NCBI GenBank assembly: GCA_014360645.1
Contig: JACIXD010000019.1
Coordinates: 1 to 62,073, forward strand
DNA: 62,073 nt
Source of the DNA: Actinomycetota bacterium
GTDB lineage: Bacteria > Actinomycetota > Geothermincolia > Geothermincolales > RBG-13-55-18
Direction: 5' to 3'
Positions within the stretch are counted from its first letter, which is position 1. Each line of letters starts with the position of its first letter. The notes under the pieces were generated by a model. That model searched no databases, was not told where the DNA came from, and was given only the letters and a program-made list of their open reading frames with translations. Both the position numbers and the translations under genes were made by a program. Shown here one piece after another: positions 211 through 7,035 of the stretch.

Positions 211-331
211 ACTGAACTCAGTTTAAAATCAGCTCGGAAGTTCCGTTGCAGGCAGTGAACAAACACATGCCCGGAGCCGGGACGCCACTGGAGAAGCACC
301 CCGCGCTGCGCGCCAGATCAACACCGACCCC
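211..331. other. intergenic, nothing recognised
   Basis: No coding potential or motif was recognised between the terminator and the 3' end of the leftward selenoprotein gene. Confidence 0.5.
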
Positions 332-1174
332 TTAAGACCCGAAACCACACTCCTCGAAGCGATCGCGGCGCCAGCGGTAGGGGAGGTCGATGATGGTCCC
401 CGGCTCCTCCACCGTCTCCAGGGCCTGGAACATGTCCCTCAGGATGGCGCGCTGCTGGTTCACGTTTCCCGGTTCTCCCAGGGGAGCGCCATAGGGGTAG
501 CGCAGGTAAAGGGTGCGCGGAGCACCGATCTTCTCCGAGAGCTCGCGGTTTAGCGAGAGGGCCACCGTGCACATGCCGTAGGACTCCAACACGCGGGCGA
601 TCAGGCTCACGGCCCGGTTGCACATGGGTCAGCCGGGGGTGAGCAGCACCACGTCCACTCCGTCTTCCTTGAGGCGGCGCGCCACCTCGTGGGCGGTGCC
701 CATGGAGGGGTCGATGAGCTCCTTCACGTGCAGGTCGAAGCCGAAGGAATAATGGAAGGCGCCCACCGAGCCGATGGCTCCCTCCTCCTCCAGTTCCCGC
801 AGCCTGTCTATGGGGAAGATGACGTTGATGTCCTTCTCCGCCCGTTCATGGGAGTAGTGGGTGTGGGCGATGCGCAGGCGGGCGGGATCGGCATCCCGGG
901 GGATGGGGCGGAAGGAGGAATCGCCCAGGGAGGCGGCGGTGTCGAAGGGCTCCTGGTCGTCCAGGTGCACCCCGGTGGTGGTGATGAGGCTCACCCTGGC
1001 CTCGCGGAGTTCCTTCGCGAAGGGGGTGAGGGCTGGCCTCTCCTCGCACTTGCCGGCGGCCATGGGGCTCACGGCCTTCTCCATCAGCCCGCGGAAGGTC
1101 TCCTGGAACCACACGTACAGGGACGAGTTGGCGATCCTGTCGAACCGCGACCAGATGTTCAGCTTCTTGAGCAT
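332..1174 (-). CDS. selenoprotein B family protein (glycine/sarcosine/betaine/D-proline reductase-like), in-frame UGA = Sec
   Basis: Reading leftward from ATG at 1174, 181 codons end in ...VVLLTPG. A TGA (629-631) follows, and the same frame then continues PMCNRAV... for another 98 codons to a true stop at 332. The joined 280-residue product has the motif TPG-U-PMC (Sec182, Cys185), a UxxC redox pair. This matches the GrdB/PrdB-like family, in which a UxxC or CxxC sits in this position followed by an L/V-A-R-V-L-E helix. The frame is kept with no indel and family conservation continues on both sides, so readthrough as selenocysteine is much likelier than a nonsense mutation. Known family members take part in selenoprotein reductase complexes or act as stand-alone thiol oxidoreductases; the substrate here is unknown. 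No GrdA, GrdC or Sec-machinery gene is in the window. An AGGAGGG site lies upstream of the ATG with rather long spacing. Confidence 0.85.
594..616 (-). promoter_or_regulatory. candidate bacterial SECIS hairpin downstream of the UGA
   Basis: On the coding strand a CGGGC/GCCCG stem with a 13-base loop begins about 12 bases after the UGA codon. Bacterial SECIS elements sit in this position inside the reading frame. The loop composition was not matched to a consensus. Confidence 0.45.
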
Positions 1175-1375
1175 GTCCGTGGCAACCCTCCTTCTATCTC
1201 CCGCCGAGAAGACGCGCCGCGAAAGGCCTGCGCCCGGGCATGCGGCGCATCAATCCTTTCCCTCTCCACAACAAGAGGTTACATCAGGTGGATACCGACA
1301 GGCCCCACCCGCAAGATGCCTCTCCGTGCCTCCGCACCCGCCGAACATATCGCGGATCGCGAAAACGTCGCTGCC

Positions 1376-1939
1376 TTAGGATATCTTAAGAATCCTCTTC
1401 CAGGTACGGTGGGCGGGGCAGACGTTCTTCCATTCCTGGGTGGAATTGGCGGCGCAGTAGCGGCAGGCATGGAAGAACTGGCCCAGGAGCACCACGTTCA
1501 TGATCGCGAGGTACTGCGTGAGGAGTTTGCGGTTGTCCCGCAGGGCGATGGCCGGAGCCCAGAAGATGGTGCTCAGCGAGGCGACCTCCTGCACCAGGCC
1601 CAGGTAGCCGGGCTCCTTACCCTCCACGCGGGGGAAGACCATGGAGGTGTACTTCCCTATGTAATAGGAATAGCACATGTTGCCGTAGCCCTCGCAGCGG
1701 GAGCAGATAAGGTAACGGGGCCAGGTGAGGAACAAGGCCCATCCCGAAAGCCATACCGCAAGGTGCTTGAATCTGCGCTCTTTGATCATTCCCGCCAGGG
1801 CGACCAGGACACCCATGCCGAAGGCGGCGAAGCGCAGGGCCATGATGACGGGATTGGGGCGTGGACAGTTCTTGGCCTCGCAGGAAGCGCTCGCGAGGCA
1901 GCCGGAGTCCATCCCCTCGTGTTCGGTTCCGCAGCTCAT
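1376..1939 (-). CDS. cysteine-rich small membrane protein, unknown function
   Basis: This 187-residue protein has a Cys-containing N-terminus (C3, C14, C20, C25), then about four hydrophobic segments, with more Cys in CSRCEGYGNMC (a CxxC plus a further Cys) and CRYC near the third and fourth segments. The repeated CxxC-type pairs suggest metal or thiol chemistry at the membrane, but no family is recognised. The start at 1939 is preceded by AAGGAGGTTAAGG. The gene lies head-to-tail upstream of the selenoprotein with a 200-bp gap, so co-transcription is possible. A tandem repeat starts about 55 bases upstream of its start codon. Confidence 0.7.
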   Translation of the reverse strand: MSCGTEHEGMDSGCLASASCEAKNCPRPNPVIMALRFAAFGMGVLVALAGMIKERRFKHLAVWLSGWALFLTWPRYLICSRCEGYGNMCYSYYIGKYTSMVFPRVEGKEPGYLGLVQEVASLSTIFWAPAIALRDNRKLLTQYLAIMNVVLLGQFFHACRYCAANSTQEWKNVCPAHRTWKRILKIS

Positions 1940-3043: not shown

Positions 3044-3121
3044 GATGCTGTAACGTTTCGGTAGGCGGCTTTGGGTTGAAAAAGTTTGAGAGGCCACCCT
3101 ATCATCCTGACAAACCAAGCA
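3044..3121. repeat. dispersed intergenic repeat, copy 1
   Basis: About 78 bp nearly identical to 10239-10315 and related to 19841-19920. Here it abuts the decayed ISLre2 transposase; the other two copies continue into a different shared sequence. Confidence 0.75.
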
Positions 3122-4225
3122 GTCGAGACGGAGGCCCTGGAGATGGCCTCGGAGACCTCCTTCCGGCGGGCGGGCAAGCACCCCTCCTTCTTTCTGGCCG
3201 AGGAGGTAGGCCATTCCCTGCTGCACCGCAGAACGCAGAGGCGGGGTTCCGAGAGGGCGGAGGAGAAGAGGGCGCGGGCTCTGGACCTCTTCTCCTGCGG
3301 CGTGCTGCCCGAATCGGAGCGAAGGGAGGCGGAGAGAGGCTGTTTATGGAGGCGGACGGGTGCATGATCCCCCCGCAGCGGGAAGAGAGAAAAAAGCACG
3401 AGCTCAAGGTGGGCATCTCCTACGAGGGCTGGTCCCGGGCAGGCGAGGACAAGTGGAGGACTAAAAACAGGCGGGCCTGCCTCTCCGCAGCCGACGCAGG
3501 CACCTTCCTCTCCTGCCGGAGCGCCGATCTCGCCACCGTCTACGACCGCTCCAAGGTAGGCGAGGTCATCTGGTCCTCAGATGGGGCCTCCTCGCTTGTC
3601 CGCGGCCGACCTCTTCGCCTGCGCCCATGCTCAGCTGGACCGCTTCCACCTGGCGAGGTCGCTCACCCGGGCCCTGGGGTTCTCGCAGGAGGCCTTCCGT
3701 CTCTTTACCCCGGCCAAGGAGGGCAAGGCTGCGGAAGTCGTACAGGGCCTGGAGGGACACCTGGGAAAAGCCGGAGGCGAGGGGAAGAGGAAGCGGATCT
3801 CCGAGGCCATCGCTTACATCTCCTCCCTTGCGGCCTGGCTTTCGGACTGGAGGGACGTGCTCCCGGCGGCGGAGGACCACCGCTCGCCCGGGGCCGTCGA
3901 GGGCAACGTGGACAAGTGCGCCGCCGACCGCTTCAAGAAACGGGGCATGAGCTGGAGGCCCTGTGGCGCAGGTCACATGCGAAAGATCATCGAGCTTGAG
4001 GGAGAACGGGGAGCTCGGCAACTTTATCTCAAGGAGGAGGAGGGCAGACGAGAAGGCGGCCGAGGCGGCCATGGCCTCCTTGCGAAGGGAGGTGAGGAGG
4101 AACCCGGAGGCTTGGCTCAGAAAGAACATGCCGCCGCTCGAGACAAGAAGCGGTGACCCCTGGGTGAAAGATGTGCTTATGGGCCTGGCGGGCTACCCTA
4201 AGATGGCGTGTCGAGGCGTTGTCGG
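3110..4225 (+). pseudogene. ISLre2-family (UPF0236) transposase, frameshifted and N-terminally truncated
   Basis: Pieces in three frames line up in the family's order: MEADGCMIPPQREER...ELKVGISYEGW (about 3345-3590), SSDGAS near 3575, LDRFHLARSLTRAL (about 3630-3680), and GAVEGNVDKCAADRFKKRGM near 3890-3950. GAGHMRKIIEL and RENGELGNF then appear in two different frames around 3965-4020. Frame changes near 3340, 3595 and 3990-4005, and the missing N-terminal third, mean it cannot make an active transposase. The left side begins inside a dispersed repeat. No clean terminal repeats were found. It lies directly upstream of the GntR regulator promoter. Confidence 0.85.
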
Positions 4226-4272
4226 GATGGGGCGCCTACTTTTTTTGGACAGCAACCGCGACAGGCCGGGGG

Positions 4273-4303
4273 TTGCATTGGGAAGGCATATATGTATATA
4301 CAT
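4273..4303 (+). promoter_or_regulatory. promoter with GntR (HutC-type) operator
   Basis: A perfect 12-bp palindrome ATGTATATACAT (4292-4303) contains GTATATAC, matching the GTnTAnAC form described for HutC-subfamily GntR sites. TTGCAT (4273-4278) lies 16 bases before TATATA, so the operator covers the -10 region. It sits about 40 bp before the GntR start codon, which suggests autoregulation. Confidence 0.65.
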
Positions 4304-4344
4304 TTATTAATATAAGCGGCGCTTCGAGGGCAAAGACCATAGAG

Positions 4345-5085
4345 GTGAATGAAAAGAAGATAGACCCGGACGACTACGCCCCCGCCTATCACCAGCTGGC
4401 GCAGATCCTGCGCGAGAAGATAATGGGCGGCGAGTTGCGTCCTGGCGATCGCATCCCCAGCGAGGAGGAGTTGGGGGCGGAATACGGCCTCAGCCGCATG
4501 ACCGTGCGCAGGGCCATATCCACCCTCTCCGAGGAAGGGTTGCTGCGCGGCGAGAGGGGGCGGGGCACCTTCGTCGTCGAACCCAGGGTGGACGGCGGCC
4601 TCTTCCTCATCCCCGATTTCCACACGGAGATGCGCAACCGGGGCTTCTCCACCCGCGTCAGGTTGCTGGGCGTGAAGGCGGTCAAGGCCGGCGGCGTGCC
4701 GGCGGAGAAGCTGGGGGTTAGGAGGGGTAGGAAGGTCCTGTACCTGGAGCGGGTACTGGAGGGGAACAGGGAGCCCCTGGTGTTCGACCGTAAATATATC
4801 CTCTACGACAAGACCCAGCCACTGCTGGAGGAGGAGCTGGGGTACGGCTCCACTGCCGAGTTCTTCCCCGGGGGCTCGGGGCTGAAGCCGGTGCGGGCGG
4901 AGTTGAACCTCACCGCCACCGTCCTCTCGGCTCGCGAAGCGGAGCTCCTCGCGAGCAGGAAGGGGGCCCCTGCCTTCTGCATGGAGCAGCTCCTCTACGC
5001 CGCCAACGACCTGAGGGTGGTGTGGGGCTGGATGATCTACCGGGGCGACAGGTTCTCCTTCGCCTCGCTGAGCCGACCGCTGTGA
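4345..5085 (+). CDS. GntR-family transcriptional regulator, HutC/UTRA subfamily
   Basis: This 246-residue regulator has an N-terminal winged HTH (about residues 8-78: YHQLAQILREKI, IPSEEELGAEYGLSRMTVRRA, GERGRGTFV) and a C-terminal UTRA ligand domain. The GTG start is set by the start of the GntR domain; an ATG two codons later is out of frame. The ribosome site is weak. The gene overlaps no neighbour and is followed one base after its stop by a corrinoid protein gene, so it probably controls corrinoid methyltransferase genes. An operator palindrome lies in its own promoter and a near copy lies in the promoter of the leftward 7674 gene. Confidence 0.9.
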   Translation: MNEKKIDPDDYAPAYHQLAQILREKIMGGELRPGDRIPSEEELGAEYGLSRMTVRRAISTLSEEGLLRGERGRGTFVVEPRVDGGLFLIPDFHTEMRNRGFSTRVRLLGVKAVKAGGVPAEKLGVRRGRKVLYLERVLEGNREPLVFDRKYILYDKTQPLLEEELGYGSTAEFFPGGSGLKPVRAELNLTATVLSAREAELLASRKGAPAFCMEQLLYAANDLRVVWGWMIYRGDRFSFASLSRPL

Positions 5086-5086
5086 G

Positions 5087-5758
5087 GTGATGAGGGTGAC
5101 CGGGAACGATCTGGCCGAGGGACTTATCCAGGCCGTGGCGGACGTGGAGGAGGAGAAGGCGCTGGAGCTCGCGGCGGAGATGATCTCGCGCGGCGTGGAG
5201 CCCCTGCTCATCATCGACGCCTGCCAGAAGGGGCTGGACGTGGTGGGAAAGAGGTATGAGCGCAGGGAGTATTTCTTGAGCGCCCTGATCATGTCCGGCG
5301 AGATCTTCCGTGAGATTACGGTGCTGCTGGAAAAGGAAGGGTATTTTAAGCCTTCAGAGGACGAGGAAGCGCCGAAGGTGATCCTGGGCGCGCCGCTCGG
5401 AGACATCCACGACCTGGGGAAATATATCGTCTCGGTGCTCCTACGCCGTGCGGGATTCCGGGTTATCGACCTGGGAGTGAGCGTCGTCCCCGCGAGGTTC
5501 GTGGAGGCGGCCGCCGAGGAGGACGCCCGCCTGGTCGCCATGAGCGCCCTCATCACCGCCGCCTACGAGCCCATCCGGGAGACGGTCGCGGGATTCGAGA
5601 AGGCCGGCTTGCGGGAAAGGGTGAAGATAATGCTGGGTGGAGGCGCCATCAACCAGATGGTCTGCACCCACACCGGCGCGGACGCCTGGAGCAGGCAGGC
5701 CACGGACGCGGTGAAGTTCGCCCGGGAATTCCTGGGCGGGACGCCCGGCCAGTGTTAA
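5087..5758 (+). CDS. corrinoid (B12-binding) methyl-carrier protein 1
   Basis: A 223-residue MtaC/MtbC-type protein. It has an N-terminal helical cap (about residues 8-85) and a Rossmann-like cobalamin domain carrying D106-x-H108-x-x-G111 (GDIHDLGK), with H108 the lower axial cobalt ligand. It ends with the IMLGGGAINQ strand and GADAW segment. Such proteins carry a methyl group between a substrate methyltransferase and a second methyltransferase. GTG (5087) or ATG (5090) can start it, and GAGGTGATG suggests tight coupling to the GntR gene. It is paralogous to the protein at 7036-7674. The substrate is unknown. Confidence 0.92.
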   Translation: MMRVTGNDLAEGLIQAVADVEEEKALELAAEMISRGVEPLLIIDACQKGLDVVGKRYERREYFLSALIMSGEIFREITVLLEKEGYFKPSEDEEAPKVILGAPLGDIHDLGKYIVSVLLRRAGFRVIDLGVSVVPARFVEAAAEEDARLVAMSALITAAYEPIRETVAGFEKAGLRERVKIMLGGGAINQMVCTHTGADAWSRQATDAVKFAREFLGGTPGQC

Positions 5759-5807
5759 CCCCCGCCAGGCCTGAAGCCGCGCGTGGTCCCCAAACCCGAG
5801 GGCGGGC

Positions 5808-7010
5808 TCAACCCCTGTCGTAGTAGCCGTACTTGACCACCGAATTGAAGAAGACCTTCACGTTCTCCGGTTTTGCGTTGGCGTCCAGCTCGCAACCCGT
5901 GCCCAGGATGAAACCGCCGCCTTTGCCCACTTCCTCGATGAGGCGGTGGCAGTACTCGTCCACCTCGCTGGGCGAGCCCATGGCCATCATGGCCGGGTGC
6001 ACGTCCCCGTAGATGCACATGCGGTCCCCGAGCACCTCCTTGGCCTTGAAGATGTCGGAGGTCCCGTCGAACTGCACGACGCACTGGCCGGCCGGCAACA
6101 CCCTCAGCGCTTCCAGGTTGAGGTCCCAGTTCCCGTCCAGGTGCAGGATGCTGGTGATGCCGGCGTCCGCCAGGCGCTCCACCAGCATCTTCAATGACGG
6201 CAGGGAGTATTTCCTGAACTGCTCGGGGGAGATGAAGTCGTTGGACGAGCGGTGCAGAGTTATCTGGGCTCTCCTGATGCCAAAGAACTTCACCGCCAGC
6301 TTGATGGTCGCGGCAAAGGACTCCACCAGGGCTTCCGCCGCCCTCACGATCTCCTCGGGGCGCTGATAGAGGTCGTTGACGAAGGGGATCAGCCCGCGGG
6401 AGAGGGAGAAGGCATCGAAGGGGAGCATGCGGGGGCCCATGGAGTACCACATGGTGACGCCCCTCTCCACCCACTCCCGGAGTTCCCATACGTAATGGGC
6501 CATCTGCGCCACGAAGCGGGAGATCACGAAGGGGTAGACCCGCCAGCTGTCCTCGATATGATCGTATATCCTCGGCAGCAGCATCCTGGCCATGCGGTCC
6601 CAGGCGAGCGCAGGGGTCTTCCTGCCCAACTCGGCGATCACCCGGTAGTCCTCCGGTTTCATGATCTCCGTCTCGATGAACTGGTGAACGTAGTCCGCCG
6701 GCAGCTCGAAACCCGGCTCGAGGGTCTTCATGGGTATGTAATACGAGGCGAGTTCCCGGTAGTAGTAGTGAAACATGTAATACGCATCCCAGGGTCCGAG
6801 CTCGTCGAAGACCCTGAGCACGGCTTTCGGATAGAGCTTGCGGTCGAACAGGTCCGCGTAGGTTATGCCGGTATAGTTGGAGATGAAGTAGTAGACCGAC
6901 GGGACCACCGGCACCCGGTCCGGTATCTGGAGGCGGCAGGCCGCCTGGATGCGCTCCTCCGTGGTCATGGTGTCACGGGGATGGATCTTCCTGGTCACCT
7001 TGATCATCAT
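5808..7010 (-). CDS. UroD-family methyltransferase (MtaA/MtbA-like)
   Basis: This protein of about 400 residues has the uroporphyrinogen-decarboxylase fold used by corrinoid-dependent methyltransferases. Visible blocks include MTTEERIQAACRLQIPDRVP (N-terminal), LHLDGNWD with its His, DVHPAMMAMGSPSEVDEYC, and GGGFILGTGCELDANAKPEN. The His and Cys in LHLDGN and GTGCELD fit the zinc-ligand positions of this group. It is not haem UroD. The ATG at 7010 is chosen because GGGAGGAG lies 6-13 bases upstream. It follows the corrinoid protein 2 gene by 25 bp, forming a two-gene leftward operon, and converges on corrinoid protein 1. It most likely moves a methyl group to or from the corrinoid proteins; the substrate is not deducible. 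Confidence 0.88.
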   Translation of the reverse strand: MMIKVTRKIHPRDTMTTEERIQAACRLQIPDRVPVVPSVYYFISNYTGITYADLFDRKLYPKAVLRVFDELGPWDAYYMFHYYYRELASYYIPMKTLEPGFELPADYVHQFIETEIMKPEDYRVIAELGRKTPALAWDRMARMLLPRIYDHIEDSWRVYPFVISRFVAQMAHYVWELREWVERGVTMWYSMGPRMLPFDAFSLSRGLIPFVNDLYQRPEEIVRAAEALVESFAATIKLAVKFFGIRRAQITLHRSSNDFISPEQFRKYSLPSLKMLVERLADAGITSILHLDGNWDLNLEALRVLPAGQCVVQFDGTSDIFKAKEVLGDRMCIYGDVHPAMMAMGSPSEVDEYCHRLIEEVGKGGGFILGTGCELDANAKPENVKVFFNSVVKYGYYDRG

Positions 7011-7035
7011 CACCACTCCTCCCGTCGCCCGGCCC

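Follow-up and report, generated by a model that had tools for sequence, protein, structure and literature searches.

Locus and gene neighbourhood

At one end of the window, by which we mean the whole stretch of 62,073 nucleotides that was analysed and that forms the start of contig 19 of the host genome, the minus strand carries a continuous frame of 280 codons (1174-332) whose sole interruption is a TGA at 631-629 (Table 1). As the initial annotation had anticipated for automated callers, a standard caller splits this frame into two ORFs, one of 181 aa (1174-629) and one of 97 aa beginning at an internal ATG (625-332). Its proposal that an in-frame UGA joins the two was borne out, as a single frame runs through both and only the TGA separates them; the strand, which had not been given, is the minus strand. 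The readthrough translation around residue 182 is VVLLTPG-U-PMCNRAV, which puts the selenocysteine (Sec) within the sequence TPG-U-PMC, where it had been predicted. Both halves match the NCBIfam model TIGR04483 separately, the first over model positions 17-147 and the second over 151-236, and this is the look expected of a single interrupted protein.

Table 1. Features of the PrdB-like locus in the window and of the Sec machinery on contig 8 (C8) of the host genome.
Feature	Position	Strand	Remarks
PrdB-like selenoprotein gene	332..1174	minus	280 residues including Sec182; coordinates cover the stop codon
UGA read as selenocysteine (Sec182, predicted)	629..631	minus	Starts the UPMC (UxxC) redox motif; basis: TGA/TGC conservation and Sec machinery
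Cys185 codon	620..622	minus	Presumed to be the resolving Cys in UxxC; UPMC in translation
SECIS hairpin core	602..616	minus	Stem CGGGC 616-612 / GCCUG 606-602, 5 bp; loop CGUGA 611-607
Cys-rich membrane-protein-like ORF, 187 aa	1376..1939	minus	Upstream; neighbour conserved within the family
tRNA-Sec (anticodon UCA)	C8 133630-133721		Rfam 81.8 bits and ARAGORN
selB	C8 134033-135910		Above curated cut-off
selA	C8 135972-137345		Above curated cut-off
selD	C8 138353-139273		Above curated cut-off

The Cys-rich ORF upstream matched no Pfam family above cut-off, and homologues 62-88% identical to it lie near the PrdB-like gene in three relatives (L058, L059 and L060). Gene neighbours vary between clades and outline no clear pathway. 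In three loci a metallo-beta-lactamase (MBL)-fold gene is found directly upstream of the PrdB-like gene (L059:7412-8758, L060:7775-9016 and L061:5072-6325), with a TetR-type gene adjoining. We considered this MBL-fold/PrdB-like pair as a functional clue and rejected it, because neither the host nor its congener, which likewise carries the PrdB-like gene, has the MBL gene. In another clade the PrdB-like gene comes after a YchF GTPase gene, which is little informative.

A crude scan of the remaining window for ORFs split by TGA gave no convincing second selenoprotein. Between the Cys-rich ORF and an RRM gene there is a tandem duplication (1993-2244) with a 126-bp unit and copies 98% identical, and further on a UPF0236-family gene extends across two frames (3076-4156), apparently as a decayed copy. 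The adjoining genes at 4174-7016, for a GntR/UTRA regulator, a B12-binding corrinoid protein and a URO-D-family (methyltransferase-like) protein, are likely a corrinoid methyl-transfer cluster.

Family affiliation and the missing pyruvoyl partner

The protein had initially been described as GrdB/PrdB-like, and at the superfamily level this description stands. Its C-terminal part matches PF07355 (GRDB) with 41.3 bits (E 1.6e-10), above the gathering cut-off of 22, and its best NCBIfam model, TIGR04483, is that of the D-proline reductase subunit PrdB. However, the score of 178.5 bits is below the equivalog cut-off of 300, and with this model the true PrdBs of Enterococcus, Ligilactobacillus, Terrisporobacter and Peptoclostridium reach 310-425 bits, against 87-187 for the stand-alone relatives. 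The two GrdB models gave 52.5 bits (TIGR01917, cut-off 602.2) and 61.5 bits (TIGR01918, just under its cut-off of 65.45). In the tree, the 11 GrdB rows and the 6 PrdB rows each form one group (SH-aLRT 100) apart from 74 stand-alone rows; a second tree, built with care on a smaller number of PrdB rows, shows the same grouping. What does not stand is an assignment to PrdB proper, given this score and a genome with neither PrdA nor GrdE.

D-proline reductase requires the pyruvoyl protein PrdA, according to the passage of PMC13188914 that cites Kabisch et al. (1999). A profile search with PF09338, the PrdA/GrdE family, found no member in the host genome or in seven relatives, while in the positive controls NZ_CP154629 and NZ_CP007453 the same search finds PrdA adjoining prdB. 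Across the sample of the phylum, PF09338 is present in 15 genomes, 14 of which are exactly those that have only a weak GrdB-type match (E > 1e-12). It is absent in 62 of the 63 remaining genomes with a PrdB-like gene, the exception (G289) having it beside a GrdB-type gene, so that the name "proline reductase" predicts for these 62 a pathway that is absent. Since the window protein scores below the PrdB cut-off and PrdA/GrdE is absent, we think that this label should not be transferred to it.

The homology to PrdB and GrdB could suggest that a stand-alone Sec protein still cleaves a C-N bond, the substrate being cyclic or N-containing and the place of PrdA being taken by some unrecognised partner, a reading that shares the Sec recoding with the one we prefer. 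Along similar lines, a relative with a UxxU motif (L076, see below) has an ornithine cyclodeaminase-family gene as its next gene, and the MBL-fold and TetR genes beside the three relatives mentioned above could be taken in the same sense. However, no neighbour is conserved across the stand-alone branch, and the MBL-fold protein is found neither in the host genome nor in its congener; we consider C-N cleavage of this kind unlikely, if worth keeping in mind. Considerably less credible is that the product is PrdB in the strict sense, the Sec-bearing subunit of a D-proline reductase, acting with PrdA in a Stickland-type metabolism. It is true that TIGR04483 is the best NCBIfam model and that such genes go under "proline reductase PrdB" in the literature, but to the deficit in score and to a host without PF09338, where the controls have PrdA next to prdB, one has to add a UPMC motif instead of UGTC and the absence of the SHGGYDN and MGGGG motifs. 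Judging from the sequences, the window protein is probably a stand-alone UxxC redox selenoprotein and not a D-proline reductase.

Predicted recoding of the UGA codon

The initial annotation had predicted SelA, SelB, SelD and tRNA-Sec in the same genome. We searched the rest of the host genome (an Actinomycetota, 3.38 Mb, 98% complete) by family and by protein, and all four were found, adjoining on one strand of contig 8 (C8:133630-139273). The SelD of this host is itself a UGA selenoprotein, in which readthrough of one TGA gives SSKSG-U-AAKVG. With the full Sec machinery in the host, recoding cannot be disputed on the grounds that the machinery is absent.

Relatives of the gene were detected in 77 of the 396 genomes of the same phylum that were searched, nearly all with at least one in-frame TGA. 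Codon 182 is TGA in every close relative, at 77, 70, 69, 63 and 46% identity and belonging to several genera and families, and also in homologues from the Chloroflexota (Dehalococcoidia) and the Alphaproteobacteria. Eight diverged homologues have TGC instead, Cys being the only substitute found, and the Sec/Cys state switches at least five times on the tree. The prediction that homologues would show U or C at this position without a frameshift is thus what the alignment displays, and the claimed absence of indels held as well, with 0 internal indels against the three nearest relatives. The dN/dS downstream of the UGA is ca. 0.15-0.22 (against four relatives), below the value upstream, so that the part after the UGA is under purifying selection.

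These observations leave very little probability to the UGA being a true stop, whether by a nonsense mutation, a sequencing error or the existence of two separate short proteins. The codon is literally TGA and an ATG follows shortly after, but the same TGA recurs across many genera and three phyla with TGC as the sole substitute, the downstream part is under purifying selection, the hairpin described below is missing from every homologue with TGC, and the Sec system is complete. Least probable of all is that the UGA is decoded as some residue other than Sec or is subject to ordinary readthrough, for although UGA is reassigned in some bacteria, the tRNA with a UCA anticodon is a tRNA-Sec by both Rfam (81.8 bits) and ARAGORN, and the position alternates with Cys, not with Trp or Gly. 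The predicted recoding of UGA to Sec is supported by the machinery, by conservation and by the covariation in the hairpin.

The motif itself varies within the family. Cys185 is kept in most homologues, but three alphaproteobacterial proteins (L019, L020 and L021) retain Sec with the resolving Cys changed to Asp (U-P-L-D-H), so that the UxxC pair is not universal across the stand-alone branch. Two other loci, L076:6694-7350 and L107 (genomes G114 and G081), have a second TGA, so that the motif reads U-P-I-U; to judge from the codons, this is probably a UxxU motif with two selenocysteines within the PrdB-like family. A UxxU motif was reported for a Prx-like family in the relevant part of PMC2398784.

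The SECIS hairpin

A hairpin had been proposed at 594-616, 8-12 bases downstream of the UGA. Its core could be placed at 616-602, with the stem beginning at 12 nt and the loop at 17 nt from the UGA. The bSECIS rules (PMC13188914) ask for a loop of 3-9 nt with a G in the first two positions, a stem of 4-16 bp, a distance of 16-37 nt from the UGA and a minimum free energy of -7.5 kcal/mol or lower. The window hairpin agrees with these rules in the size of its loop, the place of the G, the length of its stem and its distance from the UGA, and reaches the energy limit only with a lower helix included (-11.3 kcal/mol; -7.0 for the 25-nt core and -5.5 for the 5 bp alone). On the window sequence by itself the structure does not stand out: the 72-nt stretch does not fold more strongly than its shuffled versions (z = +0.58), and in an unconstrained 42-nt model a competing fold wins, leaving the hairpin a pair probability of about 0.02.

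The relatives give a very different picture. Of the 68 Sec homologues, 60 preserve all four pairs of the core, and none of the 8 Cys homologues does (Fisher 7e-7, a value that overstates the significance because the homologue rows are related). When synonymous codons were redrawn for the same proteins (1000 draws), the hairpin was expected intact in 9.8±2.7 of the 68 Sec homologues, with a maximum of 22, vs the 60 observed. Several pair types are seen at most stem positions, for example UG, UA, AU and GC at one of them and GC, UA and CG at the next. The eight Sec rows that do not have the hairpin include two true PrdBs, in which the sequence downstream is different, and also two UxxU proteins. 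It is by the comparison with relatives alone that we judge the hairpin to be real, folding of the single sequence being uninformative. An Rfam scan of window positions 300-1400 found no SECIS family; to our knowledge Rfam contains few bacterial SECIS models, and for this reason the result carries no weight against a SECIS.

Proposed role of the protein

We propose that the locus is one selenoprotein gene, encoding a stand-alone PrdB-like, thiol/selenol-dependent reductase rather than a D-proline reductase, and we would put the probability of this reading at nearly 90%. SelB carrying Sec-tRNA-Sec would bind the 616-602 hairpin and insert selenocysteine at the UGA (631-629), yielding a 280-residue PrdB-like protein with the active-site pair U182-P-M-C185. 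The protein, placed in the stand-alone branch of the GrdB/PrdB superfamily, would work without a pyruvoyl subunit (PrdA/GrdE). Sec182 may then attack an electrophilic substrate, Cys185 would resolve the resulting selenyl-sulfide, and cellular thiols or thioredoxin could regenerate the enzyme. The protein most likely serves as a thiol-dependent reductase in which no pyruvoyl group takes part.

The AlphaFold model (pLDDT 69) puts residue 182 after a strand (175-179) and just ahead of a helix (183-198), a predicted placement that would resemble that of many thiol oxidoreductases. Compared with the PDB, the model gave no match at E < 0.001, and a PDB sequence search returned only weak, unrelated or glutaredoxin-like matches. 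Because the model is weak and has no significant PDB match, we infer the catalytic geometry and claim no fold.

For this genome the outcome is a well-supported selenoprotein in a place where an ordinary ORF caller gives two fragments.

Comparison with known systems

Genes of this kind have been catalogued as "PrdB" since 2005, and the window gene is a further example. The relevant passages of the Sargasso Sea survey (PMC1088965) give 42 "proline reductase PrdB" genes with UxxC and those of the Global Ocean Sampling (GOS) survey (PMC2398784) 235, while an excerpt of a bacterial-genome selenoprotein survey lists 131 genes as "Proline reductase". As described in those marine passages, the metagenomic PrdB selenoproteins have Sec in UxxC and are among the commonest marine selenoprotein families, and our likening of the window protein to them is by that description. 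The alphaproteobacterial homologues fetched here fall in the same stand-alone branch as the window protein. It seems to be little appreciated that the majority of these "PrdB" genes, at least in this phylum, come without PrdA, a protein that the passages on marine PrdB in PMC1088965 and PMC2398784 do not mention. We lean towards the view, with some reserve, that the "PrdB" genes of this phylum and of marine alphaproteobacteria make up a selenoenzyme family of their own, which has a substrate specific to it, works without a pyruvoyl subunit and has been misnamed since 2005. If the substrate were identified, a function could be assigned to a selenoprotein family reported as among the commonest in seawater surveys.

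With true PrdB (TIGR04483) the window protein shares homology over residues 46-270, an in-frame UGA and a Sec in UxxC at the same place. They differ in the motifs, TAG-U-GTCHR, SHGGYDN and MGGGG in true PrdB and UPMC, HTHYSHE and SFGFD here, and in the genomic context, as the true prdB loci of Enterococcus, Ligilactobacillus and Terrisporobacter have prdA adjacent and the host genome has none. The likeness to GrdB (PF07355, TIGR01917/TIGR01918) consists of the UxxC motif and the PF07355 match, but GrdB is a protein of about 430 aa (280 aa here), forms a separate clade and has a GrdE partner that is absent here. The "Glycine/sarcosine/betaine reductase selenoprotein B family protein" found on Roseomonas and Haematobacter plasmids is also stand-alone, with no GrdE or PrdA annotated nearby; it is about 30% identical to the window protein and has CPxC where the latter has UPxC.
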